Assembly: GCA_949710005.1 (NCBI GenBank)
Contig: OX453275.1
Coordinates: 17,693,259 to 17,757,258, forward strand
Direction of reading: 5' to 3'
DNA from: Ricordea florida
Lineage: Eukaryota > Cnidaria > Anthozoa > Corallimorpharia > Ricordeidae
DNA: 64,000 nucleotides
This document shows positions 5,117-62,753 of the stretch, one piece after another (position 1 is the first letter of the stretch; the number at the start of each line of letters is the position of its first letter). Both the position numbers and the translations under genes were made by a program. The notes under the pieces are model-generated. The model was not told where the DNA came from. It did not search any database and saw only the letters and a program-made list of their open reading frames with translations.

Positions 5117-6102
5117 TTAAGCCAGGTTGTAGGTCACGTTCTTGTCAGCATCAATTTCCATCATATCCACATACTCTGCATAGACAATCATCGTCAGTAC
5201 TGTGTTGGTGGGATCTAAGAACAGCCCTTTTATGCTGACTTGTCCTTTGCATTCACCGCTGCACCGCTTCCATCAGGGGTTGAATCCCACATGAACAGAG
5301 CAAATCCGTCAAACCAATTGTTTCTGCTTATTTGCAGTCCAGGACCTCGGTGCATGTGACCGCTTCCCAACAGCAGTGAATTGTAACCATTCACGTTCTC
5401 GTTGTCATCCAACTCAATGGCTGATGTGGGATATTCTTCGCCATCGACGAGCAGCTTCAGGGTCTTCAAGCCAAACAACTGAAAATTAAAAGGGTTTTGA
5501 CCCATGTTTCCCACATAGGCATTGTTTCGAACCAAGCCAATCACAACACGCCTGGGTATTTTGCCCAAGAACAGATCGTTTCTCTGAAAGCTGGATTGTC
5601 CACTGGCAATGTTGTAGGCTTGCACATTCCCTCTTTCCAAATTGTAAAGGGCAGGTCTGGGAAGGCTTCCATTCACTCTTCCTGTCATGATGTTGAGATG
5701 CTGTAGGCGCACAGAATCATTGATTTTCACATAACGCACCACAAATTCACAGTCCAGGATTTGCAGTTTTTCAGCACCAGTCGCTGACATGAGACAAAAG
5801 GCATCATTGTGGATGTCAATGCGAATGTTCATGTTCACATCCCCCACCAGGTACTTGTCGGTGTGAAACAGAGCATGAGCAGGAGTCCCTTTCATTTGTA
5901 CCACACTACTATCATTAATGAACAGCTGTCTTTGCAACAAGTTTGGAATACCAGCACCAGGCTGACCCGTAGTTGTTTCCGTCAAGTTAAATTTTCCCGA
6001 TTGATCAATATACCACAAGATACAAGTCAGGTACGATTGAGCACTGGCTGGGTCGTAACTCAACAGATTTTCAATGTAAGCTTTGTAAGCATATGAGTGA
6101 CC
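5117..6102 (-). pseudogene. Major capsid protein (double jelly-roll type), C-terminal part
   Basis: The frame from 6108 to about 5240 includes SYAYKAYIENLLSYDPASAQ, DAFCLMS, PRRVVIGLVRNNAYVG and NPFNFQLFGLKTLKLLVDGE, the recognisable order of Polinton/adintovirus hexon-like capsid proteins. The C-terminal strand (VLTMIVYAEYVDMMEID) is in another frame, ending at TAA 5117-5119, so a frameshift lies near 5235-5245. The N-terminal side is interrupted at 6102 by an inserted element; a further 45 or so codons resume beyond it (6798-6931). The first jelly-roll start is missing. The protein would form the capsid shell. Confidence 0.85.
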
Positions 6103-6119
6103 TTTCACGCGAAAACGTA

Positions 6120-6370
6120 CACTATCGGTTTTCCGTTAAACGGCTGAAACGAACGGCTATCGAACGGTCTACGAACGGTTTCATCGAACGGCTGAACGGG
6201 TTATTAAGTATTCCGAACGGGCAAGCTAACCGTTCGAACGGTTCATGAAATTTCTCGAACGGTTTGCCAAAACGTTCGAACGGTTTATGAAATTTTCTGA
6301 ACGGTTTACCAAAACGTTCGAACGGTTTATGAAATTTACCGAACGGTTTGCCAAAACATTCGAACGATTA
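6120..6370. repeat. CGAACGG minisatellite
   Basis: At least a dozen copies of gaacgg/aacggtt occur in 250 bp. From about 6236 they become a regular unit of about 42 bp containing ttcgaacggtttatgaaatt and gaacggtttgccaaaac. The unit is open in one plus-strand frame and reads as a repeated MKF-ERFAKTFERF pattern, which I take to be incidental. Confidence 0.7.
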
Positions 6371-10646: not shown

Positions 10647-10897
10647 CTAAAACCAATGTTCCCCTTCAGGTATCTTGAATCTATCCGTTTGGTTGGCAAA
10701 AGGTGGTACCACCGTATAATCTTGGGCTTGTAACACATCTGAAGAGTCGGTATGTCTCAAAGCCATAAATCCCAATAGTCTGGCCATGGGTAATGAAAGT
10801 ATAAGAGTTCGATCCGCGGGAATGTTCCATCGAACCTTTCTGGTGGCCTCTCCAACACCATGTTATAAAAAGCCACTTTGTGATCCTTGCCTTAAAC
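10647..10897 (-). pseudogene. Fragment of a fifth capsid-type paralog (E), cut by a transposon
   Basis: One minus-strand frame ending at TAG 10647-10649 reads ADRTLILSLPMARLLGFMAL and then VVPPFANQTDRFKIPEGEHW, matching the strand around FRISLPFARILGF in paralog D. The upstream side ends at the terminal inverted repeat of the element at 10898-13490, so the N-terminal part has been separated or lost. Confidence 0.45.
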
Positions 10898-11635
10898 ATT
10901 AGGGAGCTTAAGATGCGGACGTTTTCGCGGTGACAACGACGTGACAGCCCAGGTGGACTGGGCCAGAGGTTGCCGTTCTCGCGCCAAAATTAATTTGCTT
11001 TAAGATTCTCATGACGGCCTTCCGCGACTTCGTCGAGTACATCGGCGGTACTTTCCGAGATTAAATCGCTTTTGTTCGTAGCATGGCCGCAATTGAAGAT
11101 TTTCGACAACTTCTCATTCTTTTCCAGACTGAGTCCTTGCATTGATTTACTGAATATTTGCTGGATGAAACTGTTATCAGTGTTTAATACGCACTGAACG
11201 TATCCACATAAATTATTGCTCTAAATTCACAGCACTTCATCGAAGAAATATTTCAAGTGTGGTTATACAAGCCTAAAGAGTACATTTACATATTGATGAG
11301 CTATGTAGTGGATTTGTTGGCTAAGTGTAAAAAAATTCAGAACAAAATATTTATCTCTGCACTTTTTAGCAGCCTCCAGAACTCCAAAATTCTTTATCGC
11401 CTAAGAAAATTCGGATTCAATATGCTACTAAGAAATAAAAAAAATTATTTTTTTCTTAGCTTGTGAGCGGGCGGAATTTTGAAAATCCTACAATCTGATT
11501 GGTTCCGGGAGCGGGCGGTATTCCCCTATCTCTTGACCACGGTCACAGTATCCAAACCAGTGTAACCAAAGCAAAGTTACAAATCATTTTACGAAAGTAG
11601 TTGCTTTTTCTTAAAACACAAAGTAAACGTCAAAT

Positions 11636-12924
11636 ATGGACTCCGATGAAAGCTATCAAAGCGAAAGTGAATTTTACTACGAAGACGAATTATGTGGGAA
11701 CACAAACAAGGAAAACAATGAAGAAAACCAGCCGAATTTTACGATGACTGACGTACAAAATTTTATCGTGGGCCAGCGACCCGAAAACACCGTTAAGAAA
11801 ACCCACTATGACGTTAATACTTGGAAGAGATACCTAAAGAACCTAAACGAAGAAAGAGAAATCGAGTCCATACCTGCCAAAGAGCTAAACATCCTTATCT
11901 GTCGGTTTTTCATGGATGCAAAGAAAAAAGATGGCGGTGCATACGAACCCTCTACTTTGACGTCGTTTCAGAGAAGTTTGCAGAGATATCTGAACGATAA
12001 AGGCTCCAAACTTAACATACTGAAAGACCAAGAATTTTCCAAATCTAGAGAGGTCCTTTTGGCGAAGAAAAAGCAACTTGTTCAAGACAGTGCAAAGGGA
12101 AATCGTCCTCGAGCTGCTCGGGAGCTTACTGATGAAGAAGAGGATATCTTGTTTACAACTGGCGAGTTTGGTGACCACAATCCAGAGGCTGTTCAAAGGA
12201 CAGTGTGGTGGCTCCTCTCACTTCAGTTTGGATTTCGAGCTCGTGACGAGAGTCGTAAGCTGAAGTGGGGAGATATTTCTCTCATAACAGATGGAATTAC
12301 AGGAAATGATTTCCTTGTTTGGGCCGGCGAGAGAGGCTCTAAAACCCGCCATTGAAATGCCTCAAGGGCTTTCAATCCAACAGCTCAAGCAACACACAAT
12401 GAGCGCTGTCCGGTAAAATACTACAAGTCTTTCAAGAGCCACCGACCTGAAGAAATGATGAGACCTGATTCTCCGTTTTTTTGGCCATAAATCACCGCCG
12501 CAAGCCAGAAAACAACATCTGGTAAAGTAAATCTCCTCTCGGAAAGAATGAGATTGGCAAGTTTATGGTAATGGCTGCAAAGCGAGCAGGTCTAAGTGGA
12601 AATATCACAAATCATTCCGTTAGAAAAACTTGTATATCTCGCCTTATGGATGCTGAAGTGCCAGCCAATTATGTAGCTCAGCTAAGTGGGCATAAGAATC
12701 TGAAAAGTCTGGATGCCTACAAGACCGCCTCCATGGACCATCAGCGACGTATGTCCCTGGTTCTGAGCAGATCAGCTGACGATCAAGACCCTGGTCCACT
12801 ATCTGTGAAAACCGGTGGACGAAAACCTCTAGTACAGCTACATAGGAGTTCCACGAGCACTGAAGCAGCATTAGGTCCTACATCTGGTTTATTTTCCGGC
12901 GCTTCAATCGGTCGAATTAAATAG
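11636..12924 (+). pseudogene. Tyrosine recombinase (Crypton/ZMYM-related type), broken
   Basis: The first frame (ATG 11636-12355) has an acidic start, a SAM-like core-binding domain (RPENTVKKTHYDVNTWKRYL, LNILICRFFMDAKKKDGGAY) and the first catalytic region LQFGFRARDESRKLKWGD with its Arg. After stops between 12355 and 12565 the second frame has NHSVRKTCISRLMDAEVPAN and LSGHKNLKSLDAY, giving H-x-x-R, the Gly-His turn and a candidate nucleophile Tyr. This architecture is that of eukaryotic Crypton-derived recombinases, which cut and join DNA through a 3'-phosphotyrosine. About 70 codons between the parts are frameshifted. Confidence 0.75.
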
Positions 12925-13064
12925 GTTATTTACTGACCGAGAGTCGGTCCGTATAGGAAAAAACTGTGCCCGAGGTCTTGAGTGGGGCCCGAGGCCGAGG
13001 GCCCCACTCAAGACCTCGGGCACAGTTTTTTCCTATACGGACCTCCTGGCCAGTAAATAACCTA
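12922..13064. repeat. Long near-perfect hairpin after the recombinase gene
   Basis: The arm taggttatttactg (12922) through gtccgtataggaaaaaactg and gtgcccgaggtcttgagtgg is repeated in reverse complement to 13064, with a centre near 12993 and a few mismatches near 12936-12948. Arms are about 70 nt. It may be a separate foldback MITE inserted just after the stop codon, or a structure belonging to the element. Confidence 0.7.
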
Positions 13065-13492
13065 TATGTATTGGAGTCAGTAAAATGTATTACATATATA
13101 ATTGTTTTACAAGAAAGAATTCGTTGAACGTAACAGCTTATTTATCTTTACAGACTTACTTAGATTGTTTTGTCTTCACTGAACTAGTTTCAGAGTCTTC
13201 GGTCATTTTCCTGAGTTTTGTCTGTGAAGAGAGCACAAAAAGCCGCTAGAGTTACTTGGCACATCCCCAGGTGGTTTGTGCTAATAAAGAAACTGAAAAA
13301 AAACAAGGAATGAAGAGTGCAAGAAAGAAATAGCGGTATAAATACTCACGTTTTCACTGCGACGGCAAAATTCCCAAACTGACGTCGGCGGGAATGTTGG
13401 AAATCGCATGCGCAGTTAAACTCGCCCCAATCCTAATCGCTCTTTACGTCGCCGTCGCGTCGAGAACGTCCGCATCTTAAACTCCCTAATGG

Positions 13493-13618
13493 TTGGACAA
13501 CAGACGGTTTGACTGCCCACACTGCCGAAAGCAATTGCCATCCACGTACATTATGACCTCTGAAGAAGCCACGGATGCCCTCTTACAAGATCCAGAGTTT
13601 CAAAGAAGGATTCGGCTG
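13493..13618 (+). CDS. First exon-like segment of the spliced cassette region
   Basis: The open frame reads FDCPHCRKQLPSTYIMTSEE and then ALLQDPEFQRRIRL, ending at a good splice donor (ctg|gtaaga, 13619). A CxxC pair may bind zinc. There is no ATG upstream in frame; ATG at 13551 is the first internal one. The left limit is set by the transposon end at 13490, so the true 5' part may have been separated. Confidence 0.4.
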
Positions 13619-13714
13619 GTAAGAATTGACTTGAATACAATTAATCATAATAATTTTATTAGCCATAGTTGGTTTGTGTTTCTTCGTTTACCTTAATTTT
13701 TTTCTTTTTTTTAG

Positions 13715-13897
13715 AGTTATAATGAACTGATTCTGTATATCAAGGATAAGCAAGAACGAAACTTACGAACTACCAACATTGAATCGATTGTCAAGATGTT
13801 ATTGCAAAAAGCCCTTTGTATGAGTTTTAATGTATGGCATGATTATAAACCACTTGATTATTGCGAAAGACGAGTTCTTTTTGATTCGCTTATTTGA
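13715..13897 (+). CDS. Splice cassette 1
   Basis: It follows ttttttctttttttttag (acceptor AG 13713-13714). The phase-0 frame reads SYNELILYIKDKQERNLRTT and continues MSFNVWHDYKPLDYCERRVL to TGA 13895-13897. It joins in phase with the donor at 13618. A possible internal donor (gtatgg) follows codon FN. Predicted helical N-terminus. Function unknown. Confidence 0.4.
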   Translation, partial: SYNELILYIKDKQERNLRTTNIESIVKMLLQKALCMSFNVWHDYKPLDYCERRVLFDSLI

Positions 13898-13920
13898 TAA
13901 TTTTTCTTTTTTTTCTATAG

Positions 13921-14064
13921 GCATTGAACAAACTAAAAGCTACAAAGTCAACTCTTAAATATAAGTTACAGCAGCAAAATAGAATTATAGCCAACCCGTT
14001 TCGATTTTTCAGACCATGGAGCATATGGTATCTTGCATACAGGTTGTCCCAAACACTGAGATAG
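13921..14064 (+). CDS. Splice cassette 2
   Basis: It follows tttttcttttttttctatag (AG 13919-13920). The frame reads ALNKLKATKSTLKYKLQQQN (a short coiled-coil-like stretch), then FRFFRPWSIWYLAYRLSQTL, stop TAG 14062-14064. The tract 14065-14256 is T-rich with a G8/C8 block and no open frame. Confidence 0.35.
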   Translation, partial: ALNKLKATKSTLKYKLQQQNRIIANPFRFFRPWSIWYLAYRLSQTLR

Positions 14065-14256
14065 TATATTTCAAGAAAAAATTCGTTTACATTTGCATGT
14101 ACAATATTGTGATTAAAAAAACTTTTTATTTTATTTTTTAGTATTTTTTTATTATTTTTTTATTTTTTTTTTGATGGGGGGTACCCCCACCCCCCCTCCT
14201 TGATGTCTTTAAAAAAATATTATTGAATATACACTTAAACTTTTTTTCTTTCTTAG

Positions 14257-14364
14257 GTGATGAGTAATATGATAGACATTCAAATACCTCATAATATTGT
14301 TGTCACCATGAAAGTAGGAAATAATGAATATAAGATTGTCAATCTTTACAAACAAACTCTATAA
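14257..14364 (+). CDS. Splice cassette 3
   Basis: It follows tttttttctttcttag (AG 14255-14256). The frame reads VMSNMIDIQIPHNIVVTMKV and NNEYKIVNLYKQTL, stop TAA. The second codon is an ATG, so it could be translated on its own when spliced to any 5' leader. Thirty-five codons. Confidence 0.35.
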   Translation: MMSNMIDIQIPHNIVVTMKVGNNEYKIVNLYKQTL

Positions 14365-14385
14365 ATTGTCTTTTATATTTTCCAG

Positions 14386-14769
14386 ATGTATCCAGAAACA
14401 CGCTATAATCAATCACAACTAGGAATCGACAGATTATTTATAGTATTTAAAGAGATACGTGAATGGGAATATTCCATGTTACATATTCACAAAGAACTTG
14501 TGCTTGATTTTTACTCAAACCATTTAAAAAACCCTCTTTTTCATGAAGAGAGAACACAACATGTTATAGTTTTTGTTTCTTTACCTTTTTTACAGATGGT
14601 TCGATCAATTGATGCTTGTTCAAGTTACATAACTAATAAATATCAAGAACTAGTGGATGCTTCTATGGCTCAATTTGATCTGTCTGATGCTTATAACCTG
14701 TTACGTACTCGTGATTATCTGTTTGATTGTAGAAGGATAGCTTTTCGTTTATTAACTGATCCTTATTAA
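14386..14769 (+). CDS. Splice cassettes 4 and 5 (127 aa open frame)
   Basis: ATG at 14386 directly follows an acceptor (tatattttccag). The frame is open to TAA at 14769. A second acceptor (cctttttttacag, AG 14594-14595) directly precedes another ATG at 14596 in the same frame, so a shorter product is possible. The second half, SIDACSSYITNKYQELVDAS ... LSDAYNLLRTRDYLFDCRRI, resembles the cassette at 14973 (AECERYVMDKHNQASLQVAK). Largest product of the array. No known domain. Confidence 0.45.
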   Translation: MYPETRYNQSQLGIDRLFIVFKEIREWEYSMLHIHKELVLDFYSNHLKNPLFHEERTQHVIVFVSLPFLQMVRSIDACSSYITNKYQELVDASMAQFDLSDAYNLLRTRDYLFDCRRIAFRLLTDPY

Positions 14770-14792
14770 AAAAAATTTTTTTATCATTACAG

Positions 14793-14921
14793 ATAATGAA
14801 TGAAACCGTTGACCTTATGACGTTTGTTATGCATGATTACTACAGTAATTTCAATGGATATAGTCCACGTGATTATCATACCTTGAGGATTCGTGATACA
14901 AATTTGATTTTTGTTATCTAA
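14793..14921 (+). CDS. Splice cassette 6
   Basis: Acceptor ttttttatcattacag (AG 14791-14792), then ATG at 14796. It reads MNETVDLMTFVMHDYYSNFN and YSPRDYHTLRIRDTNLIFVI, stop TAA 14919-14921. The HDY...DY...R pattern recalls cassette 1 (WHDYKPLDYCERRVLF), suggesting the cassettes arose by duplication. Confidence 0.4.
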   Translation: MMNETVDLMTFVMHDYYSNFNGYSPRDYHTLRIRDTNLIFVI

Positions 14922-14972
14922 TACTTTGTGGTTTTTTTTCGTCCATCATGAATTTTAATTTTTATTTTTGAG

Positions 14973-15140
14973 ATTTATTACATGCTTGCTGAATGTGAAA
15001 GATATGTTATGGATAAACACAATCAAGCAAGTTTACAAGTTGCCAAACTTAGTCTTCAGGAGATATATCTTGACATAGTTTTCATCATGAGTAGAATCGA
15101 ATGGTGCAACATTATAGTTTTTTTCTTTTTTTTTCCCTAG
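14973..15140 (+). CDS. Splice cassette 7
   Basis: Acceptor aatttttatttttgag (AG 14971-14972); ATG at 14982. It reads MLAECERYVMDKHNQASLQV and AKLSLQEIYLDIVF. The frame ends in TAG 15138-15140, which is also the AG of the next acceptor. Similar to the second half of the 14386-14769 frame. Confidence 0.4.
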   Translation: MYYMLAECERYVMDKHNQASLQVAKLSLQEIYLDIVFIMSRIEWCNIIVFFFFFP

Positions 15141-15153
15141 ATAAAAAAATATA

Positions 15154-15303
15154 AAACCTGGAGAGTGTACAAGTTTACTTCGTTATAGATATGGTGTTCC
15201 CAATTTACGGGATGCAGATGTACCACTCATTGAACATATTTGTGAAGATTTAGATGTAGTAAGCCGAAGGTTATGGCTTGATTTTATGAGAAAATTCAAA
15301 TAA
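15154..15303 (+). CDS. Splice cassette 8
   Basis: The acceptor AG 15139-15140 is preceded by tttttttctttttttttccctag. The informative frame (KPGECTSLLRYRYGVPNLRD, then PLIEHICEDLDVVSRRLWLD) has an upstream stop at 15142-15144, so it needs another entry point. A TATAAAA at 15150-15156 could instead be a promoter element. Stop TAA 15301-15303. Confidence 0.3.
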   Translation, partial: KPGECTSLLRYRYGVPNLRDADVPLIEHICEDLDVVSRRLWLDFMRKFK

Positions 15304-15325
15304 GTTTTTTTCTTTTTTTTGCCAG

Positions 15326-15532
15326 GATGAAGATAGTGATGATAGTGATAGTGAACTGTTATTTCATTTAGCACAATGTCAATGTGATGAATGCCAACAA
15401 GATGTAGATCAATATAGTTATTGTGGTTGTGATTGTAGTTACTGCTACCATATGGTTGATGAGATGAATTATTGTGATTGTAAAGGTTGTAATGCTCTCT
15501 TCTGGCATTTCAATGTCTTATCCTTAGAATAA
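15326..15532 (+). CDS. Splice cassette 9, acidic Cys-rich
   Basis: Acceptor tttttttctttttttttgccag (AG 15324-15325). The frame reads DEDSDDSDSELLFHLAQCQC, then about ten further Cys in CxC/CxxC spacing (SYCGCDCSYCYHM, YCDCKGCNALFWHF), stop TAA 15530-15532. An acidic start and dense Cys pairs suggest a small metal-binding peptide or the transactivation/zinc part of a spliced regulator. No ATG at the start, so it must be joined to an upstream exon. Confidence 0.4.
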   Translation, partial: DEDSDDSDSELLFHLAQCQCDECQQDVDQYSYCGCDCSYCYHMVDEMNYCDCKGCNALFWHFNVLSLE

Positions 15533-15556
15533 GAAAATATCACCTTTCTTTTCTAG

Positions 15557-15670
15557 GGTGAATATATTGATGATGATCACGATTATGCCCTTTTATTTGA
15601 CCACATGTTTGATGCTCCAGATTATGTCCTTTTATTCGAACACATGGCTTTATCACCACAAGTGATGTAA
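15557..15670 (+). CDS. Splice cassette 10
   Basis: Acceptor cctttcttttctag (AG 15555-15556). The frame reads GEYIDDDHDYALLFDHMFDA and then PDYVLLFEHMALSPQVM, an internal duplication of DYALLFDHM/DYVLLFEHM. Stop TAA 15668-15670. Thirty-seven codons, acidic. Confidence 0.35.
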   Translation, partial: GEYIDDDHDYALLFDHMFDAPDYVLLFEHMALSPQVM

Positions 15671-15699
15671 TAATAATAACAAAACTTGTTTTATTTTAG

Positions 15700-15756
15700 G
15701 CCAGAAGATGGAATTACGATTCTCTTCTAAAAGAAAACATGTCTATTATTCATTAA
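15700..15756 (+). CDS. Splice cassette 11 (18 codons)
   Basis: Acceptor acttgttttattttag (AG 15698-15699). The frame ARRWNYDSLLKENMSIIH ends at TAA 15754-15756. Very short; it could be a terminal exon only. Confidence 0.25.
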   Translation, partial: ARRWNYDSLLKENMSIIH

Positions 15757-15800
15757 AAGATTTTCAAATATATGATAGTGTGTGTTTTTTTATCTCTTAG

Positions 15801-15941
15801 GAATGCCTTCAAATGTCATTTAAACCCATTCAACCATTCATGTCCCTTCATTTGAGAGAATGCCTAAAAGGCGACGCATTAAAAGATAAACAAGAGTGTT
15901 CAAAAGAACAAGACAGTACGGAGGCAAACAAAGCAGATTAG
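15801..15941 (+). CDS. Splice cassette 12
   Basis: Acceptor gtttttttatctcttag (AG 15799-15800). The frame reads ECLQMSFKPIQPFMSLHLRE and CLKGDALKDKQECSKEQDST, stop TAG 15939-15941. It overlaps the start of a small basic reading frame at 15860 in another frame. Confidence 0.3.
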   Translation, partial: ECLQMSFKPIQPFMSLHLRECLKGDALKDKQECSKEQDSTEANKAD

Positions 15942-15994
15942 GAAAGTTGGTTAATCGTTACAGACGCCCTCCACCTTTCATTGGTACTTGGTGA
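15860..15994 (+). pseudogene. Small Arg/Lys-rich core-like protein, one in-frame stop
   Basis: ATG 15860 begins MPKRRRIKR, then TAA at 15887-15889, then the same frame continues FKRTRQYGGKQSRLGKLVNR and YRRPPPFIGTW to TGA 15992-15994. The TGA overlaps the ATG of the next basic gene (TGATG). Likely a viral DNA-condensing peptide; broken by the nonsense codon or started elsewhere. Confidence 0.4.
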
Positions 15995-16194
15995 TGATGG
16001 TAGCAAGAAAGAAAAGAACACGCTTTAAAAGAAGAAGAAGACGCACCATGCGTGGTGGAGCAATTTCAGTAGCTGAAATCAAAAAAAGACTGGACAAAAA
16101 ATATGGCAAAGGATCCTATGCAAGCAGAATGGGCAAACCCTGGGCAAAACCAGCGGTCTCTTTTGTAAATTGGCTCGGTAGAAAAATACACTAA
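15994..16194 (+). CDS. Small basic core protein with an adenain-type MRGG site
   Basis: ATG 15994 (or 15997). The N-terminus ARKKRTRFKRRRRRTMRGGA is extremely basic and includes MRGG followed by AISVAEIKKRLDKKYGKGSY. Adenain cleaves (M/I/L)xGG before X in adenovirus precursors such as pVII and pX; MRGG-A fits that rule exactly. Cleavage would split a 19-residue Arg-rich peptide from a helical remainder. The stop TAA (16192-16194) lies in an AATAAA at 16193-16198. It fits with the element's own adenain-like protease at 4.6-5.1 kb. Frame intact. Confidence 0.6.
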   Translation: MMVARKKRTRFKRRRRRTMRGGAISVAEIKKRLDKKYGKGSYASRMGKPWAKPAVSFVNWLGRKIH

Positions 16195-16304: not shown

Positions 16305-16504
16305 TTCAACAGCCAATCAGAAGCCTCCATTTATTCCAAACCGGTCAAACCGGTTTGCCCAATTTGCATACTCGTCAAACCGGTTTCCCTTTGCATAACC
16401 GGTTTGACCAGTATGCTAATTTTTCAACAGCCAATCAGAAGCCTCTATTTGTTCCATAGTGGCCCCCTTTACTACTCTGCTCATATTGTCAGTTCGTTAT
16501 ATAC
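16305..16504. promoter_or_regulatory. Dense regulatory block: CCAAT boxes, AACCGGTT palindromes, octamer
   Basis: Two 33-bp direct copies (16305-16337 and 16423-16455) each contain CAGCCAATCAGAAGCC, a strong NF-Y-type CCAAT box. Between them lie AAACCGGTTT at 16347-16356 and 16377-16386, TAACCGGTTT at 16396-16405 and a half site at 16338-16345, the Grainyhead/CP2 consensus. A perfect ATTTGCAT octamer is at 16362-16369 and an octamer-like ATGCTAAT at 16413-16420. A TATA-like TTATATAC is at 16497-16504. It sits between the basic core genes and the DNA polymerase gene. Which gene it drives is unknown. Confidence 0.5.
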
Positions 16505-16700: not shown

Positions 16701-16946
16701 CGAACGGACACCTTTAAAAAAAAGATATATATATATAAGTAGTTGTAAAGTGCGGATTCTGGAACAAAATCTAAAAAGTGCATTTCTAAAAATTTAAATC
16801 TCATTCTTCACCTTTAAACCCCCCTCATTGCACCATCCCAAATTTCAATTTTCCTGAATCACATTTTTTTTTTTGAAAAAGTGGAATCGGCCCCACTCAG
16901 CTAGCAAAACACCTTAAAGGCCTCTGTGGTGTAATTAAGCGACATC

Positions 16947-19900
16947 ATGGAGAACTTGCCAGTGAAGGAACTGAGAGCAATCGCTAAAAATGCTGGAGTT
17001 CAGAGATACACTAGATTTAGGAAGGCCGAACTCCTTGAAATATTATCTGATGTTCAGCCAGAGAATTTACCGGTGAGGGTACTAAGAATCATCTCCAAGA
17101 AAAATAGTACCCGAGGTTATGCTAAGATGCGTAAAACAGAACTTATTAATGCTGTGAGATCCACGCCAGGCTCTAGAAATACCGATTCATCAGCATCTGA
17201 GATCAACATCCCAATTTTCAAACCTCCCAAACCCACAACAAAGTCTGTTCGCTCCTCATTCAGGAAAGCCGTCGATTCGGCAAAGAAAGAAATTAAGACG
17301 TTTACGGATTGGATTTTATCTTACATCCCAGACTCAACCAAGAGGACTGTGAGTAAAAGACTCAAAAAACTCCAGAAGAAGGTAAGTAGCATTTTAAATA
17401 AGCCAGTCGATCATTTCATTCCAAAAGAACATGAAACGGCTCTGAAAGGCTTTTTGAAGACATTTATCATAAAGGGGAGGAAGGGTTATGATCCCACATC
17501 ATTTCTTAAAAAAGTGAAACCAGAATTCTATACACTCATCCACAAACAAAGGAAACCACTCAAGGTAAAGTGCATCTTCTCATGTCATTTCATAAGGAGG
17601 AATAAAAAGACCAATCGTATTGACGAGGAGAGCGATGGATACTTTCATTCACTGGTGGAGACAATAACAGCCGCAACAAACACCTTTAGTATATTCGATA
17701 AAATCGCAGCTCGTCTGATTGAGATGGTCCATAAATATGAGAACGAGCGCTCTGAATGGGTATTTGACCACGTGATAGACTTTCGTATCCACATGAATCC
17801 TTTTCAACCGTTTTCTGGAACTTCATATATTCCACTACCAGCTAAATTGGCCGCCAAGAAGGCAGTCATAAATGTTAAGAACGCGGAAGACCAGGAGTGC
17901 TTCAAATGGGCAGTAACGTCTGCTGTGTTCCCCAGCGAGAATCATCCTGAAAGATTGAATAAGGAAATGAGAGAGAACTCTGAGAAATTCGACTGGTCAG
18001 GAATAAAGTTCCCAAGGGCAGCACTTGGGATAAACCATATTGACAAGTTCGAAAGGCAGAACCCCTATGGGATCAATGTCCTTGGCTATGAGAACAACGA
18101 GCCAACCCTAATCAGGCGTAGTAATAAATTGAAAGTACCAAAGATAAACTTACTTCTCATATCAACAGACGAGACAAATCACTACTGTTGGATTAAGAAC
18201 ATGTCAAGGCTGATTAAGTATAATAAAAATAAGGAGGCTCGTTTTTATTGTGACAATTGTCTCAAATCATTCCCTTCAGAAAAATCATTAGAAACACACA
18301 TGGAATATTGCCTAAACCACGAAGCAGTGAAGGTACAAATGCCCATGAACGAGGACGGGAGCCCAAAATACATCACTTTCCAAAATCGCAACAGAAAGAT
18401 GCAAGTCCCCTTTGTGGTCTACGTGGACTTCGAGTGCTTCACGGAGAAGATAGACACTTGTTCACCAGACGATAAGGAGAGCTTTACGAACCAATACCAG
18501 AAACACAAGCCATCAGGGTTCTGTTTTCTTATTAAATTTTTTGACGACGAGGTATTTCCACCACAGCTCGTAAAATACACAGCAGAATCTTCAAAGGACG
18601 ATATTCCCAAGATGTTTTACGAGAAGCTAGAGTTTTGTATCAAGAAAGTTTATAATAAATTCAAATTCAAAAAGAGGCCTAATATGAAAAGGAGAAACGA
18701 AATAGCATACGAAAATGCGACTCACTGCCACATTTGCGAGGGCGAACTGGGAAAAGACCAATTGCTGGACCACTGTCACCTCACGGGTAGGTACAGAGGA
18801 GCAGCCCATAAGAAATGCAATTTGGAATTCAAGGTTCCCAAGTTCTTCCCGGTCATATTCCACAATTTGTCTGGATACGAGAGCCACTTATTCGTCAAGA
18901 AGCTTGGAGTATCAGAGGGCAAGATAAATTGCATTCCCCTCAACGACGAGAAGTACATCTCATTCACAAAGGAGATTGTGGTCGATGCCTTCAAGAACGA
19001 GGATGGGAAGGAGATTGAAATTAAAAGGTACATTAGATTCATAGACAGTTTCAGGTTCATGTCGAGCAGTCTCGCCAGTTTGGTGAATAATCTACCACGA
19101 GCGTCCCTGAAAAATCTGGAGAGGTCCTACGAAGGAGAAAAGCTCGACTTATTGACTAGGAAGGGCGTATTCCCATACGATTGGTTTGATGGGTATCGTA
19201 AGCTAAAGGAGCCACATCTTCCACCAAAAGAGGCATTCTACTCGAAGCTTTATGATGTTGATATATCGGAGGAGGATTATTAACATGCTGAAGCCGTGTG
19301 GGAAACCTTTGGGATGAAACCCTTTAGGGACTATCACGACCTATACCTTAAAACGGATGTACTCCTATTAGCTGATGTTTTTGAAAACTTCAGATCTGTT
19401 TGTATGACCAATTATGGGCTGGACCCCGCATGGTACTTTACTGCACCTGGATTAGCATGGGATGCCACATTGAAAATAACCAAGGTGGGATTAGAGCTAT
19501 TGAGAGACCCAGATATGCTGATTATGATTGAAAAGGGCATCCGAGGCGGGATCTCAACGATTTCCACCAGGTATGGGAAAGCCAACAATCCATACATGAA
19601 GGAGCACGATCCAGCCTTCCCAACAAAATACATCACATATTTGGATGCAAATGGACTGTATGGCCACGCAATGACCAAAGCCCTACCAACTCACGGTTTT
19701 GAATGGATGGATGACCAAGACTTATTAAACTGGAGGGACCATCCATGCATATTGGAAGTGGACTTGGAATATCCCCACCAATTGCACGACTTGCACAATG
19801 ATTATCCCTTAGCCCCAGAGACTTGACGCAAACGGAGTCGACAAGTTAATCCCGAACCTCAGTACAAAACAAAGTACATACTTCACCACGAAGCACTAAA

Positions 19901-20440
19901 ACAATACCTATCCCTCGGACTAAGCCTGACCAAAGTACACAGAGGGATCACATTCGAAGAGTCAGCGTGGCTAAAGCCTTACATCGACTTGAACACCAGT
20001 CTTAGAGCCAAAGCGGAGAATGACTTTGAGAAGGATTTCTTCAAACTCATGAACAACTCCGTATTCGGGAAGACTATGGAGAACATCAGGAAGAGAGTGG
20101 ACATTCAGTTGGTCACGAATGAACTACAGGCACGCAAATTAATCGTGAAGCCTAACTTCCACCACAGAAACATCTTTTGCGAGAACCTAACCGCGTTTCA
20201 CATGAAGAAAACAAAACTTGTCTTCGATAAACCCATTTACTTGGGCTTATCCATTCTGGACCTGAGCAAGACGATAATGTACGATTTTCACTACAACTAC
20301 ATAAAGCATAAGTATGGAGAGAAAGCCAAGTTGTTATTCACAGACACGGACTTTCTTGCATATGAAATACAAACCGAGGACTTTTACAAGGACATCAGCC
20401 CAGATGTGAAAGAGAAGTTCGATACCAGTAATTATCCCAA
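16947..20440 (+). pseudogene. Protein-primed family B DNA polymerase, Polinton type, 3'-truncated
   Basis: ATG 16947. Two SAP-like repeats open the protein (LPVKELRAIAKNAGVQRYTR; LPVRVLRIISKKNSTRGYAK). Then a C2H2-like finger near residue 430 (FYCDNCLKSFPSEKSLETHM), exonuclease I YVDFECF near 491, an endonuclease-VII-like zinc module near 607 (DHCHLTGRYRGAAHKKCN), polymerase A (YLDANGLYGHAM) near 897, B (MNNSVFGKTMENI) near 1034 and C (FTDTDFLAYEI) near 1132. Defects: TAA at 19281-19283 where Glu is expected, a frameshifted patch about 19818-19870 with TGA 19824-19826, and loss of the C-terminus where a hAT end begins at 20453. In motif C the usual DTDS is DTDF. Would replicate the element's linear genome. 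Confidence 0.88.
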
Positions 20441-20452
20441 GGTACATCCATC

Positions 20453-21716
20453 CCAGGGGCGGATCCAGAGTAGTTCAAGTGATTTCCAGAAATCACTCAA
20501 ATGTTTCCAAACCTGGGTTTGTTATTTCTCAGGTTGTTTCTTGAAGCTCAAGAAATCAATTATCGTTCTTGTTGCAGTGTTTATTATGAAATAAAAAAAA
20601 GAAAAAAATCGTTGAATCTCGTTATACCGTCGATTACACAGCAAACCCAGTCCATTCCGAACGAATTTGACGAATCTCCGTTCGCGCGCTTTCGTCCTTT
20701 GTCGAGACTTCGGAGAACAACACGAAAAAATTCGTAGGCACGACCGGACAAAATTTGTACGCAGTGGGTGGGAGTGGTTAGTTTATTGATCTTTCCACAA
20801 ATCACTCAAAACCCTTCTCTATTGGCCAGAATCACTCGCATTGTCTTGCGAACTACTCAAACTCGGTTGTGATTGGCTATCCAGGACGCAAACTACCGTG
20901 CAAACTACTGACAATCGTATATAAAGCGAAGCCTCTCCCCGAAAGTCTCTCGTTTGTTCTTGCTCCGATCAGAGTTCATTGTAAAGTAACTTGCTACGGA
21001 GGAAGACAAGGGAAATTTTAATTATAAATGATGGTTCGAGGCGATCCAGTATGATGTTGGCTTGGTTTTCAAGGAAATCAACTCATATTCGGACCAGGAC
21101 AAGTTCAAGTTCATAGAGAATATTTGGAAACCAGGTGAGCTATTTGATTTCCCAGCGTCAGTGGAATGTTCGAATTCTAGCCGTCATTTTGTGGAGCTGG
21201 CTGAAAAGATTTCCCTGGCTAGCATACTCTAAATATGTCGATGGTGCATTTTGTTTACCGTGTGTTTGTTTTGGAGTCCAGGGTGGGCGAAATACGAATA
21301 AACTAGACAAATTGTTCAAGTCTCCACTCACACTTTGGACGTCCGCCGTTTCACGTTTTACCAAACACGCCAGCGGGAAATGTGAGATGCATAATTTTGC
21401 AGTGATCGCAATGGAGAATTTTCTGAGAAACATGAGAAGAGAAGCGGTTCCAATTGATCAGCAGATCAACAATTTACTTCAACAGCAAATCAATAGAAAT
21501 CGCGAAATTCTGAAATCCCTTTTTAAAACAATAATTTTCTGCGGAAAAAACAACATAGCTCTCAGAGGTACACGAGATGATGATCGAGGAAATGGCAGTC
21601 TTTCCGGTAATTTCCATGCACTATTAGAATTTCGAATTGACAGGGGCGACCAAACACTAAAACATCACCAAAATGAGATGATTACAACTGTGGGTGCTAT
21701 CAAAGTGAATAATTAG
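20453..21716 (+). mobile_element. hAT transposon fragment
   Basis: It begins with caggggcggatccag, a hAT-type terminus, directly after polymerase codons. A long 5' non-coding part includes an AT/TC-rich stretch and TATA-like tatataaagcg (about 20920). The plus-strand frame 21135-21716 has RFPWLAYSKYVDGAFCLPCV, HNFAVIAMENF, REILKSLFKTIIFCGKNNIA, LRGTRDDDRGN and FHALLEFRIDRGD. These are the TTF-type zinc-finger and DUF4371 start of ZMYM1-like hAT transposases. The catalytic and dimerisation parts and the right terminus are missing, so a deletion accompanied or followed insertion. Confidence 0.75.
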
Positions 21717-38206: not shown

Positions 38207-39051
38207 ATGGAATTATCCAAGATCTATTATAGTACCGATGAATACCGGAAAAGCTATTTGGCTATTCAAAAATTCGCTAATAAGGCCAATGCTAGTAATG
38301 AGACGGCTAGAAAATGGCTAGAAAAACAAGCGATGTGGCAAATCTATTTGGAACCTCCAAAATATAAACCAAGGCCGAGATGGACCGTGGATAAACCTTA
38401 TTTTGTGCATCAAGCCGATTTGTTATTCTTGCCACACGATAGATTTAGAGGCAAAACTTACAAGTATGCATTAGTAGTCGTTGATGTTGCTCCTAGGTTT
38501 AAGGATGCCGAAGCATTAACCACTAAAAATTCCGAGGAAGTGGCTCGTGCTTTAAAAAAATGTATTCTAGGAAATTACAGCGGCAGAAGACATTAGTGGT
38601 AGACCCCGGTCGATAATTTATGTGCGTGGTAGAAAAATTGATGAAGCAGCATGGGGTTTTAGTTCAGCGTAGTGAAGCTAACAATCATAGAGCACAGGCG
38701 CTTGTTGAAAGGGCCAATCGTACTTTAGCCGAAAAGTTATTTTCACACCAATATTTGCAAGAGTTTTTGATTGAGGATAGATCTCGCATTTGGGCCAAAC
38801 GTTAACCTGGAATTATGAAAACTTTAAATGAAACGCCTACTAGATTAACAGGTAAAGCACCGATTAAAGCTTTATATTTGGATAGAGTTTATAAACGTCC
38901 AGTCGGTACTGATGAGGCGTGGTTACCTATTGGCGTTTATGTCCGATATTTATTGGCGGATGGTGAGTTGGAGGGAGGCTGGAAGAGGGCTACGGACACT
39001 TATTGGTCGCTTGAGGTTTATGAATTAGACAGAATTGTTGTTAGTAAGTGA
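38207..39051 (+). pseudogene. Retroviral-type (rve) integrase of a Polinton-like element
   Basis: ATG 38207. Frame 1 has a helical zinc-less start, then WTVDKPYFVHQADLLFLPHD (first catalytic Asp) and YKYALVVVDVAPRFKDAEAL. Frame 2 (38620-38805) has VLVQRSEANNHRAQALVERA, with the catalytic Glu, and NRTLAEKLF. Frame 3 (38815-39051) has NETPTRLTGKAPIKALYLDR and the C-terminal beta domain. Two frame breaks near 38595 and 38800. This sequence order is that of Maverick/Polinton integrases; no chromodomain is seen. It would insert the linear element into the host genome. Confidence 0.8.
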
Positions 39052-52321: not shown

Positions 52322-55112
52322 AATTTTGTTTATTTTATTTTTTATTTTATTTCAATATTTTAACAGGAACATCTATTTAGCATGGCTAGTTTAAGTAGAG
52401 TCCTGTGTAACATAATATTACAAAATACAAAAAAAAAAAATAAGAATTACATTACAGGTTACATATAAAGACAATTAAATTTGAAGTCGTATTCCCAATT
52501 CATTCTAAGTCTTGAAAAAACGTTTCGCTTTAGTTTTAAACTCTACAAGAGTCATGCTCTTTCTTATAGTAAGCGGAAGCGTGTTAAATGTGCGTGCTCC
52601 ATTTATGCGAAAGCTACCTTGGTATTTACTAGTTTTAGCTAGAGGAATGCGCAGCAGGTCTCGATGTCTGGTATGATAACTGTGTATTTCTCTAGCATGC
52701 CTAAATTCTCCAATGAGATATTGTGGGGCCAAGCCATTAATAGATTTGAAAACTAAGATAGACTTTAGATAGTCCCGCCGCTTTTGCAGGTCGGGCCAGC
52801 TGAAGATATTCGGTAATTCGACAAACTCAACAATTCTGCCTTCAATGATACTTGCAGCCCGCCGATGGAGTTTGTCTAGGTATGCTTTGTTACCCAATCC
52901 ACAGCTGTCCCAAACACTGCAACAATAGTCAAAAAGTGGTAATACCATTGCATTATATAGTATGATACAAGCGTGTCTAGGTAGGACTTTGCGTGCCCTA
53001 CGTAACATACCTAGGCGCGAGGAGATCTTTTTACCTATGTACTCTACATGATCTTTCCAAGAAAGGTTTTGATCAAGTATGACTCCTAGGTATTTGAACT
53101 TATCAACCCATTCAAGGCTGTGACCATTGGCCTGAATACTAAAATCATTAACTGAAGCAAGCCGCTGGTGTGTTCCTATCAGCATCATTTTGGTTTTGCC
53201 TATATTCAGAGACAAAAAATTAGCGCGCAGCCAATGTATAACATTAGCTAGGTCTAATGTTAAATTATTCTCGATAGTTGAAACTGACTTATTAGCAAAG
53301 TAAAGTAAGGTGTCGTCTGCATATAATTCTACATTGCAGATGCTAACGGCACTAGGTAGATCATTTACATACATTATAAATAATAGAGGGCCTAGTACGC
53401 TACCTTGTGGTACCCCAAAAGTGACCGATTGATGGTCAGAACTAATACCATTAATGCATATGCTTTGTGATCTATCTGTAAGGTAGGATTTAAACCATTG
53501 TACGGCTGATCTATTAAAGCCAAGTGCAGATAGCTTATCTAATAATAAATTGTGATCGAGAGTGTCAAATGCTTTACTCAAGTCCAAAAAAACAAGTCCT
53601 GTGAGTAAGCCATTGTCAATATTGTTCAGGATAGAGTTTGTAATATGCGTAAGACAGGTAGTAGTAGAGTGCAGAGGACGGAAGCCAGATTGTAGGTGAG
53701 ACAGGAGTTTATGCTGTTGTAGATAAGCATATACCATCCGGTGCACAGCCCGTTCGAGGATCTTTGAGAAGACCGGTAACACAGATATTGGTCTATAGTT
53801 AGCGGGATCCGTCCTGGGCCCAGACTTGTGGATTGGAGTAACCATAGCATGCTTCCACTCAGATGGTACAGCGCCTTCGGCTATTGATCTATTCATAAGA
53901 ACAGTTAGAGGCTTCGCAAGAGCTTCGGCACCGTCCTTTAGGAGTCGTGCTGGAATATCGGCAAAGCCTGTCGGTTTATTGATTTTTATTACATTTAACT
54001 GTTTAAGTATAAATTCCTCAGATATTGGTGACAGCTTGAAGACCGCTGTGGGGCTGACTTGTAAATTCCTTAGCACTGGAGAGATAGATACAGTTGGAAG
54101 TGTTTCACGAAGACGCGCAATAACAGTTCTAAAAAAGGTCCCAAATGTAGAGGCTATCGACATGGGATCTGTTGTTATTGTACTGTCGACTTCCAGAGAT
54201 TGGATATGTGAGTCGCGCACATCAGTAGAAATAGCCGATTTTAAAGCCTTCCAAAGTTTAGAAGAGTCCGACTGGTTTTCTTCTATCAGGTTAGAATAGT
54301 AGAGTTTCCTAGCTTCTCTGATGGAGGACGATATTGTGTTTCTAAGTTCACGATATTTAGACCATTCATAAATGGACCCTGACTTTATGGCTTTTTTATG
54401 ATGGAAATTTCTTTGGACAATTAGAGATCGTATTTGAGGCGTTACCCATGGGAGCGAGTTGGAACGTATTCTTCTGGCACAGGTCGGTGCGTGTTTATCA
54501 GCTATGTTTACCAGAGTGTCTTTGAAGCATGACCATGACTCATTTACTGTTAATGAGGTGTCAACGCCATCCCAAGAGGCAGAATGTAATTCAGCAATAA
54601 AGTTTTCAGTTGAATAACCTCTATAATTGCGGCAATTAACTGTTTTGATAGGGCCTTTGGGGATTTTAGCCCGGCGTATAGCATAAACAAGAGAATGATC
54701 TGTTATGGCACAATTTAAGACTCCAGAGTTCCTTATTTTTTCGGTGCTGGTGGTAAAAATAAGATCCAGAGTAGTAGAAGTGCGCTGAGTGATCCTTGTT
54801 GGAGATTTTATGAGTTGTGTGAACTGGTAGATATTAAACAGCTTACAAAGTTCCTTCGTGTCCGGCGAGCGTTTCTTTGCAGTAACATCATAATTTAGGT
54901 CACCAAGTAGCATTGTCTCGATATTTTCCCTTGAGCTATGATCAAGTAAACACTCTAATTTTGGGCTTAGATCTTTAAGTTCAACATTTGGTGGACGATA
55001 GAGCGAAGATATTAGGAGCTTGCTATTGTTAGGAAAACGAATTTCCAGCCAAACAGTTTCAACCCCGTCTGAGTCAATGTCCGGTCGTGGACGGGCTACA
55101 AACTTGCATGTA
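52322..55112 (-). mobile_element. 5'-truncated non-LTR retrotransposon (CR1/L2-like)
   Basis: It carries the end of an endonuclease domain, a complete reverse transcriptase and a short 3' UTR ending in an AT-rich tail ((attttattttttattttat) on the plus strand, 52328-52348). Coding similarity stops at about 55105, with no start of the endonuclease, as in 5'-truncated LINE copies. Target duplication not found. Region 51158-52321 upstream on the plus strand has no gene. Confidence 0.7.
52505..54913 (-). CDS. LINE endonuclease C-terminus plus reverse transcriptase (802 aa)
   Basis: The open frame runs 54913-52505; coding continues upstream to about 55105 (RPPNVELK-like text) without a start. Endonuclease end: MLLGDLNYDV and AITDHSLVYA. 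RT: ANYRPISVLPVFSKILERAV, LQSGFRPLHSTTTCLTHI, LVFLDLSKAFDTLDHNLLLD, SVTFGVPQGSVLGPLLFIMY and VELYADDTLLYF. C-terminal LPLTIRKSMTLVEFKTKAKR is typical of CR1/L2/Rex lineages. The frame has no stop, so the copy is young despite truncation. Confidence 0.85.
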   Translation of the reverse strand: MLLGDLNYDVTAKKRSPDTKELCKLFNIYQFTQLIKSPTRITQRTSTTLDLIFTTSTEKIRNSGVLNCAITDHSLVYAIRRAKIPKGPIKTVNCRNYRGYSTENFIAELHSASWDGVDTSLTVNESWSCFKDTLVNIADKHAPTCARRIRSNSLPWVTPQIRSLIVQRNFHHKKAIKSGSIYEWSKYRELRNTISSSIREARKLYYSNLIEENQSDSSKLWKALKSAISTDVRDSHIQSLEVDSTITTDPMSIASTFGTFFRTVIARLRETLPTVSISPVLRNLQVSPTAVFKLSPISEEFILKQLNVIKINKPTGFADIPARLLKDGAEALAKPLTVLMNRSIAEGAVPSEWKHAMVTPIHKSGPRTDPANYRPISVLPVFSKILERAVHRMVYAYLQQHKLLSHLQSGFRPLHSTTTCLTHITNSILNNIDNGLLTGLVFLDLSKAFDTLDHNLLLDKLSALGFNRSAVQWFKSYLTDRSQSICINGISSDHQSVTFGVPQGSVLGPLLFIMYVNDLPSAVSICNVELYADDTLLYFANKSVSTIENNLTLDLANVIHWLRANFLSLNIGKTKMMLIGTHQRLASVNDFSIQANGHSLEWVDKFKYLGVILDQNLSWKDHVEYIGKKISSRLGMLRRARKVLPRHACIILYNAMVLPLFDYCCSVWDSCGLGNKAYLDKLHRRAASIIEGRIVEFVELPNIFSWPDLQKRRDYLKSILVFKSINGLAPQYLIGEFRHAREIHSYHTRHRDLLRIPLAKTSKYQGSFRINGARTFNTLPLTIRKSMTLVEFKTKAKRFFKT

Positions 55113-56349
55113 ACATGTTACATGTTACAATTTTGCATGTTGCCTTTCATGATAACAACGTTACAGTATAATGCGTTTCTGATTTGAAGTGGAAATTTTG
55201 CAAAGTTTACATCATAGTTTTCGAATGCACAGCTAATGCCATCTGTATGATCAACGTGAAATAAAATAGAAAATGTCTTAATTTAAATAAATGGTTAGTA
55301 TCATGGCGAAAGAGCTTTCCCCATTAGGTTCTTAGCTAATTTTAACTTGCCGATTAATTTAAGGCAAGCTTAGTGCTAAATAAAGGAAAAACAAATTATA
55401 CTGTCTATGCGTCTATTCTGAATTTAATTCACAAATGCGAAGAGGAAAGCCCATGACCCGAGAGTAGAAACTGAATAGATTGGGGTTTTATATATTATAG
55501 TAAGGGTAATTTTTCAGTTTCATTTTGTTGCAAGTTTCACCGCTTGGAGAATGGAATAAGTTAAAAATATTTAACTGTACTCTATGTTTTAAACCACAAA
55601 ATTTTATCTTTCTCAAAGTCTCAGCCAGGGGTTTAGGTTTAACATATTCTTCAGCTCGATATTCTTATAAACACCTGTATAAAGTGTATTGTTATAGGAA
55701 AAAAGTGTAATCCTAATCCGTCAACAATGTCAGACCCTTATCTCACAGATATTCTCTGGTGCAGAAGCAATAGATAAAAAACCTTCCTGCCTTCTGTATA
55801 AATGTTTTTCAACTTTCTCCATCTGTTCCTCTACTCCATATGTTATAGCTTTGTTATTTACACCCGCTTTTTCATGTTTTGAGCTTTTTTTTTTATTTTG
55901 TTTCACTCAATTTGGCGGTAAATTTAGCGACACAGCTCTCTTAAATAGTGACTCTAACTCATCAAGTTTTTTGGGGCTCCCATAACCGTTACTACTCTCT
56001 ATCCCTCTTTATGAAAAGTCTTTTGTAAACATTAGAAGGTGGAAAAATGAATTTGAGCACAAGGAGAGAAAGCGCATGAATGTTTATGCCTGTAGTTAGT
56101 TGCATTAAACTCGTGATCTTGAAATAAAATGGAGAAAACCATCAACACCATTATCATTCAGGTTACAAAATTGGCAGGCAAGAAGGTTGACAATATAATT
56201 ATACTAAATGAAATGAAATGTGTCTATAATAATAAGATTGGATATAAATGTCATAAACAATAGACTGAGCATTTCAAGTGATTGAAAAAAAAATAAACTC
56301 GTCAACACAATGCGCAAAACAGATGTCCCTCACAAACAACCCGACTACT

Positions 56350-61900: not shown

Positions 61901-62753
61901 AATCATTTGACACTACATTTATGGTTTCTTTGATAATATTAATATATTCAAGATCCTTTAGAAAGTGGCAGTTCAACTTCCAGAAACCTGGTCCTCTGGG
62001 GTTTGTTTTAGTGCCAAGAGACAACGTAATAAGAGAGTGATCAGTTTTAAAGCCCGGTAGAATATCCGCCTCAAGTGCATCGGTAGATAAGCTTGAACTA
62101 ATCAAAAAAAAGTCTAATCTACAGTGAATTTCTGGTTTATTTCTTCTCCACGTGAAACGCTGAGAGTCCGGATGAAGATCACGCCAAATGTCCGTCAAAT
62201 TCATATTTTCTTTGAACATTTCAATTACTTCTAATGATTTAAAATGAGTGGTAAAATTTCCTCGTTTCTTATCTTTTTGAATATTTTGTACTAGATTAAA
62301 GTCTCCTCCCAAGACCAAATGTTCACATTCAAAAGTGGAAAGGTTATTAAAGGCACTTTGAAAGAAGTTCGGATCATCATTATTTGGCGCATAAATATTT
62401 TGTAGGGTTATAGTTTTGTCTTCTGTTTTGATATCAACTGTAATGAATCTTCCGTCAGGGTCTGAAAAGTACTTTAGTATCTCAAAAGAAAAATTGTTAC
62501 TAAACAAGATGGAAACACCAGCTCTGGAACTTGAGAGGCTGCTGAACAGACCTCTATACCCCCATTCAGCTAACCATAGATTTTCCGTTTCTTTTGAACT
62601 GTGCACTTCTTGCAAAAAATAAACAGAGTATTTTTTATACCTTAACCAATTAAAAGTTTCTCTTCTCTTAGCCTCGCTCGATAGTCCCCTGACATTCAAG
62701 GAACATATCACTAGATTATCTACTTTGGAAAAATTTGACGAATTGAAAGACAT
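58958..62753 (-). pseudogene. L1-type ORF2 (endonuclease and reverse transcriptase), one frameshift
   Basis: ATG 62753. APE endonuclease: VICSLNVRGLSS, FLQEVHSS, NIYAPNNDDPNFF, GGDFNLVQN, CRLDFFLIS and KTDHSLITLS. RT: NWRPISLLNCDYKIAAKSIA, DQTGFQKNRFIGENI, GRGVRQGCPLSPYLFILCAE and ISQYADDTTLTLDG. C-terminal Cys/His knuckle: CTFCEQKKESLIHLFWDC. The frame changes at 60898-60903, a run of six T on the plus strand, one base longer than the reading frame on both sides expects. Length about 1260 codons, normal for L1/Tx1 elements. Needed for target-primed reverse transcription. Confidence 0.88.

Follow-up and report, generated by a model that had tools for sequence, protein, structure and literature searches.

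In a stretch of 64,000 nucleotides from the corallimorpharian Ricordea florida (GenBank assembly GCA_949710005.1, contig OX453275.1, positions 17,693,259 to 17,757,258 of the forward strand; the window, in what follows), we found a damaged member of a family of virus-like mobile elements in which one splice donor stands before a row of acceptors, each followed by a short open frame. We propose, with a probability of about 0.8, that a single constant exon encoding a RING finger is alternatively spliced to these many 3' exons, and the products would probably be RING proteins with different tails, that is, E3 ligases with different partners. Judged by the polymerase, terminal repeats, and capsid-like gene of the family, the carrier is polinton-like, as an earlier note on this DNA, made by a model from the letters of the window, had supposed. 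Genome searches covered one assembly of 537.8 Mb in 48 contigs, and all array copies that were compared come from that same genome.

RESULTS

An array of acceptors behind one donor

The earlier note had described about twelve short open cassettes between 13713 and 15941, each behind its own polypyrimidine-AG splice acceptor. All 12 of the AG acceptors that it placed are present, and behind each of them a frame is open in phase 0, although these frames span 15 to 127 codons and not 18 to 128, and a single stop codon, not two, coincides with the next AG (that of the cassette behind 14972, at acceptor 15140). An ATG at the acceptor, or near it, is found in some cassettes but is not a conserved feature. 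Phase 0 gives the longest of the three phases at 11 of the 12 sites, the exception being 15699 (18 versus 32 codons), and 10 of the 12 reach the cut-off of at least 6 in a frame-blind acceptor score with preset rather than fitted weights; the sites at 14972 and 15699 fall below it. With this score, and after merging of close secondary sites, 11 acceptors are found between 13619 and 15950, a T-rich and AT-rich region, with an open reading frame (ORF) of at least 30 codons in phase 0 at nine, in phase 1 at one, and in phase 2 at none, and the reverse strand has a single acceptor site. A further well-scoring acceptor lies at 14141, between cassettes c2 and c4, with a phase-0 frame of just 10 codons.

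None of 300 dinucleotide shuffles of the window array equalled its number of sites (shuffle mean, 2.5; maximum, 7) or its number of phase-0 ORFs (mean, 0.24; maximum, 3). Phase-0 ORFs of at least 30 codons stand behind all 12 frame-blind acceptors of copy L033, behind 14 of 16 in the divergent copy L063, and behind 7 of 12 and 8 of 12 in L061 and L062, and in none of these arrays were the counts matched by any of 300 shuffles; the five shuffled arrays are kin to each other, so they are not independent tests.

The single clear donor noted at 13619 was borne out: the GT occupies 13619 and 13620, the sequence GTAAGA is kept in 17 of 17 copies, and in L033, in which donors were scored, this site reaches 5.1 and no other exceeds the threshold of 4. 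Repeated GTAAGG and GTGAGG sequences, below that score, occur between c2 and c3 at positions 780 to 936 of the L033 array, a stretch that is absent from the window copy. The features of the element are listed here by their positions in the window.

10847 to 10900, plus strand: remaining left part of the constant RING exon; in blastn matches of relatives, 10846/10847 to 10900 abuts 13490 directly
10901 to 13489, no strand given: a 2.6-kb stretch inserted later into the RING exon, bounded by terminal inverted repeats and encoding a tyrosine recombinase; missing in relatives whose match spans the site
13490 to 13618, plus strand: right part of the constant exon; its last 22 codons are 13553 to 13618, in phase 0
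13619 to 13624, plus strand: splice donor GTAAGA
13715 to 13897, plus strand: cassette c1, acceptor 13714, phase-0 ORF of 60 codons; L033 and L063 counterparts 51% identical
13921 to 14064, plus strand: cassette c2, fused here by a deletion to the end of c3; 67 codons in relatives
14257 to 14364, plus strand: cassette c4, phase-0 ORF with L063 homologue
14386 to 14769, plus strand: cassette c5, which runs through the 14595 acceptor here and stops after 61 codons in five relatives
14596 to 14769, plus strand: cassette c6, phase-0 ORF with L063 homologue
14793 to 14921, plus strand: cassette c7, phase-0 ORF with weak L063 homologue
14973 to 15140, plus strand: cassette c8, the stop codon of which contains the AG of the next acceptor (15140)
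15141 to 15302, plus strand: cassette c9, frame broken near its start here and open in 4 of 5 relatives; extra c9-like cassettes in other copies
15326 to 15532, plus strand: cassette c10, cysteine-rich; its L063 form has 85 genome matches, 82 of them stop-free
15557 to 15670, plus strand: cassette c11, phase-0 ORF with L063 homologue
15700 to 15756, plus strand: what a deletion of about 212 bp has left of cassette c12
15801 to 15941, plus strand: cassette c13, which has the weakest support, since 8 of 16 copies reach at least 85% of the reference length; a basic ORF of another frame overlaps it
15994 to 16194, plus strand: small basic ORF with an RGG motif, 3' of the array
16422 to 16476, no strand given: right terminal repeat end of the element, where the matches of 19 relatives end at 16476 or 16477
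5230 to 6135, minus strand: capsid-like gene of the same element family, with 132 genome matches

The leader is a coding RING exon

The earlier note did not recognise that the leader itself codes for protein, as an exon of about 190 codons that includes a RING finger; its coding nature was hidden because the 2.6-kb insertion splits the exon in the window copy. The frame that contains the 22 codons at 13553 to 13618 stays open further upstream in relatives, and in 15 copies the exon runs for 180 to 213 codons from an MPK start to a phase-0 end at the donor, the other copies being interrupted or uncovered upstream. A basic N-terminus, which is probably nuclear directing, is followed by a linker of low complexity, then by a variant RING finger, and lastly by a short tail that is conserved and ends DALLQDPEFQRRIRL. 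Over the RING and tail of the 15 copies, nonsynonymous divergence (dN) is 0.042 and synonymous divergence (dS) 0.651, a ratio of 0.06; constraint is weaker over the N-terminal part of the exon (dN/dS, 0.51).

Searched against the PDB as a single sequence, the RING best matched RNF125 (3.4e-5) and RNF8 (1.2e-4), and in a profile search it matched UHRF1 (5.1e-7), RNF125 (5.3e-7), and RNF8 (2.1e-6). A tryptophan and a CPxC(R/K) stretch, markers typical of E2-binding RINGs, are kept in nearly all of 12 aligned proteins. We lean towards the view that the RING exon encodes an active E3 ligase.

Cassettes in other copies

Conservation of acceptors and frames and a dN/dS below 1, proposed by the earlier note as checks in related elements of other coral genomes, were looked for among copies of this one genome, and both came out in favour of its suggestion. 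In a comparison of 17 close copies, 207 of 216 cells retain the acceptor AG, but AGs other than acceptors are retained likewise (1824 of 2044 cells), which makes retention of the AG weak evidence when taken by itself. For c1 to c11, 13 to 16 of the 16 to 17 covered copies have a frame of at least 85% of the reference length, a range that omits c12 and in which the value for c9 (16 of 17) counts the window copy, the start of which is shifted by the alignment and which is really broken. The stops of most cassettes vary little in position from copy to copy, and close copies show a clear third-position excess at the end of the exon and in c1 to c4. Comparisons with more distant copies are more telling: cassette dN/dS values, for which the best ORF behind any AG was compared and sometimes not that behind the AG of the acceptor, are 0.27, 0.35, 0.39, and 0.65 for L033 against L060, L058, L056, and L051, respectively. 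The hexamer A[AT]TAAA, a candidate poly(A) signal, occurs at eight places in L033, kept in from 11 of 16 to 13 of 13 copies, with several at cassette ends.

The divergent copy L063 holds homologues of 11 of the 13 cassettes of L033, in the same order. By blastp, the homology starts at residue 1 for c1, c2, c4, c6, c8, c11, and, weakly (2e-4), c7; c10 aligns from residue 2, and c9 and c12 align from residue 4, the L063 sequence examined ending within c12. For c5, a tblastn match begins at residue 1. L063 has about 17 cassettes in all, two short ones among them doubtful, and copies are not alike in content, some having additional or duplicated cassettes, for example two or three like c9 or one of 96 to 98 codons between c5 and c6. 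No methionine at all is encoded by c12 of L033 or by c4, c9a, and c9c of L063, several cassettes have no early methionine, and the first methionine of L063 c6 is at residue 32, the ATG that opens c6 in L033 being absent; translation of methionine-less cassettes must thus start upstream. A structure model of c2 (mean predicted local distance difference test score [pLDDT], 72) is helical, and a fold search with it returned 46 matches at an E value of up to 10 and none at 0.001 or below.

Genome-wide family and carrier element

The constant exon gave 119 rows of matches, with identity down to 38%, of which 99 were used for pairing and 20 fragmentary or N-terminal rows were excluded. A RING exon lies upstream of c10 on the same strand and within 8 kb at 67 of the 85 c10 places (median distance, 2.95 kb; chance, about 0.0007 each). 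Cassette 2 has 76 genome matches, 68 of them stop-free; searched as DNA it has 27 matches and is 100% identical at seven places, including that of L063 itself, with an eighth that rounds to 100%, which points to a recent spread of the family. Among the matches listed, and with one place taken per polymerase, a RING exon lies within 8 kb of the polymerase, head to head with it, at 53 of 71 places, and at none of the 99 RING places does a polymerase lie within 8 kb on the RING exon's own strand.

A 19-base pattern from the element ends occurs 34 times in forward and 30 times in reverse orientation (control, 0), as terminal inverted repeats. Nine pairs of ends lie 24.3 to 26.1 kb apart, these being all the pairs at that spacing (others, at 18, 23, and 26.3 kb, for example, were left out), and each of the nine elements holds one polymerase and one RING exon, standing head to head, and one c10. 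In all nine, the polymerase scores over the cut-off of PF03175, as a B-family DNA polymerase of the putatively protein-primed type, and a comparison of coordinates places a capsid-like match inside each. The capsid-like ORF, which we take to be a candidate double jelly-roll major capsid protein, had no match in Pfam and no sequence match in the PDB. Candidate ORFs for a packaging ATPase and an adenovirus-type protease likewise had no Pfam match, and the PDB sequence search gave none for one and only E values above 0.7 for the other. No retrovirus-like integrase is evident inside the element; the integrase-like ORF at 38207 to 38596 of the window, recognised by eye, belongs to a very abundant repeat, the best 150 matches of which are mostly about 66 to 70% identical, many of them in ORFs of about 330 codons.

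Relatives outside this genome

Among ENA proteins, one matches c1 and eight match the constant exon, keeping its RING and tail. Seven of the eight have valine at the donor point that follows ...DP[DE]FQ.RIR, as read-through of a GT donor would give; the own-genome rows were cut at the donor before alignment, so that the alignment itself does not show similarity ending there, and the ENA relatives were compared as proteins. Scans of IMG/VR with the neighbouring B-family polymerase (PolB), the capsid-like ORF, the ATPase-like ORF, two RING alignments, and cassette 2 returned nothing, nor did scans of GTDB genomes with c1 and a RING alignment. No RING exon with alternative 3' exons is described in those parts of the open-licence polinton and adintovirus literature that we consulted, among them parts of PMC11071296 and PMC11071308.

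The window copy, its limits, and its neighbours

Used as a DNA query, the array gave 116 genome matches, the best 16 relatives being 88 to 93% identical over most of it. Relatives carry about 264 bp near 14007 and about 212 bp near 15700 that are gone from the window copy, and the cassettes c2 (behind 13920) and c12 (behind 15699) are in their window form products of these deletions. The tyrosine recombinase at 11.6 to 12.9 kb, which matches QRICH1, DUF3504 (below cut-off), and Phage_integrase, was rejected as a gene of the element: it sits in the separate insertion, which has repeats at both of its ends, and parts of 11600 to 13400 are scattered elsewhere in the genome.

Beyond 16476, the right end of the element, the 19 relatives listed have different DNA, and the matching left end is 17.2 kb away, 726 bp outside the window. 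No B-family polymerase gene was seen inside the window copy of the element. The PolB gene at 16.9 kb (16935 to 20594) was rejected as a component because it lies beyond that right end; it is broken by stops, its first ORF matches Rho_N and endonuclease VII, and 58 genome matches to it were scored, its own included. By eye, neither an array of this kind nor such an RGG ORF is present in the 1.4 to 1.5 kb upstream of 29 other PolB copies, in which acceptor-like sites occur here and there.

At the end of the array, 15850 to 16194 holds two small basic ORFs read by hand, one with the RGG motif and the other interrupted by a stop here, that are possibly core-like. Several ORFs on the minus strand between 7144 and 10646 look by eye like paralogues sharing the pattern PNN...F.V.LP...L.G.WEVAL.SI.YP and are perhaps minor capsid proteins. 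Long minus-strand ORFs at 52505 to 55117 and 58958 to 62756 resemble, by eye, LINE (long interspersed nuclear element) retrotransposons.

DISCUSSION

The suggestion of the earlier note that one leader feeds many alternative 3' exons agrees with a single donor, many acceptors, a common phase, stops of their own, and purifying selection. We suggest that a transcription unit standing head to head with the polymerase opens with one long coding RING exon, the phase-0 donor of which the spliceosome would join, in each transcript, to one of 13 to about 17 acceptors. The chosen 3' exon would be short and would supply its own stop, and the remaining cassettes would be left as 3' untranslated sequence because no strong donor follows the chosen exon. 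The output would be a set of nuclear proteins with a shared RING half and differing C-terminal tails, and the divergent orientation of the unit relative to the polymerase gene makes early expression likely. We give about even odds to the recruitment, by each tail, of a different host or viral target to the RING. We would put no more and no less weight on the broader proposal of a modular E3 ligase kit, in which the RING exon and 13 to about 17 exchangeable substrate-recognition tails, growing in number by cassette duplication, would redirect the host ubiquitin system.

A number of observations weigh against this interpretation. No RING exon lies within 8 kb upstream of 18 of the 85 c10 copies, and one c10-RING pair is on the wrong side or strand. 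Besides the keeping of non-acceptor AGs and the loose choice of AG in the cassette dN/dS set, between 1 and 8 of 14 parts in that set have no in-phase homologue in a given copy, c5 to c12 taken singly give no clear codon-position signal among close copies, and the pooled codon-position signal was equalled by 216 of 20,000 random phase assignments. In L063, c3 and c13 have no match. Among the ENA relatives, P0005 is at odds with the donor point, and residues past that point are common to four of the eight, which would not be expected of an intron. The idea that tails select targets finds no help from Pfam, in which none of the 10 L063 cassettes tested had a match. As to the RING itself, Pfam scores of single members are below the curated cut-offs, seven of the eight zinc-ligand positions are present in most proteins while the fourth is variant (CCxKPxC) and is not histidine in 11 of the 12 aligned, and AlphaFold modelled the constant exon with too low a confidence to be informative (mean pLDDT, 46).

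The departures of the RING from the canonical pattern, together with the basic N-terminus, would suit a different role for a spliced set that is itself real, in which the RING would be not an E3 ligase but a zinc-binding scaffold or a DNA- or chromatin-binding module, as in early transcription regulators, for example. This possibility, which overlaps with exon choice, is one that we regard as unlikely but by no means negligible; the PDB sequence matches are mostly E3 ligases, and the tryptophan and CPxC(R/K) markers of E2 binding are retained. Far less probable is an arrangement in which the cassettes are separate small genes, each with its own ATG and a T-rich promoter or trans-splice acceptor, and the RING exon joins the first cassette only. 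The T-rich intergenic tracts could serve as promoters, and some cassettes do have an ATG at or near the acceptor; what is conserved, however, is the phase relative to the AG and not the ATG, which L063 c6 lacks, and the cassettes without an early methionine, or without any, are hard to accommodate. The phase common to the cassettes would also be expected of internal exons joined serially into one long protein, but every cassette is terminated by a stop, and L033 has no second site above the donor score used, which makes a multi-exon gene of this kind very improbable. A chance pattern or decaying repeat DNA, to which the base composition of the region and the damage to the window copy might point, can be dismissed in view of the shuffles in five related arrays, the purifying selection, and the identity of cassette 2 DNA at seven genome places.

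If alternative splicing of the RING exon to the cassettes is what these elements do, it would extend the adenovirus splicing strategy to polinton-like elements, with a coding leader, and would provide a compact viral route to many related accessory proteins from one promoter. The elements would supply natural RING fusions, the tails of which could reveal host targets in an animal lineage with little known virology, and a natural test bed for the sharing of one donor among a dozen or more acceptors.

Several known systems are comparable in layout. Adenoviruses are double-stranded DNA viruses in which the major late unit has a non-coding leader and 3' exons that are large structural genes, whereas in the present elements a RING finger is encoded by the leader itself, tail lengths are about 35 to 100 codons, and the unit is divergent from the polymerase and probably early. 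The likeness, of layout only, lies in a one-strand array of 3' splice sites behind a common leader, and alternative 3' splice sites are used by the major late unit (PMC3283702, in the part consulted). The vertebrate PML gene, again compared by layout only, combines a RING half with alternative C-termini: its products have the same RING-bearing N-terminal region and C-termini that differ by differential splicing and set function (PMC4405644, in part). PML differs in being a cellular gene, with seven principal isoforms, B-boxes, and a coiled coil, whereas the present array belongs to a mobile virus-like element and has 13 to about 17 tails. In the polyomavirus early region, a short shared N-terminal exon with a J domain is joined to different C-terminal parts in a few products; the T antigens thus resemble our system in a shared N-terminal exon and varied C-termini, and they differ from it in having a J domain rather than a RING and fewer products. 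The Drosophila genes lola and mod(mdg4) join constant 5' exons to many alternative 3' exons, partly by trans-splicing, but they are host BTB genes and not parts of a virus-like element. Herpesvirus ICP0 is a nuclear viral RING E3 that acts on host factors as a single protein; both it and the proteins predicted here are viral-type RING proteins, and an array of alternative tails is not known for ICP0. ICP0 is also named, in the part of that source consulted, among the proteins that disrupt PML bodies (PMC4405644). With Polintons and adintoviruses, finally, the elements share terminal repeats, a DNA_pol_B_2-type polymerase, a capsid-like gene, and residence in an animal genome.

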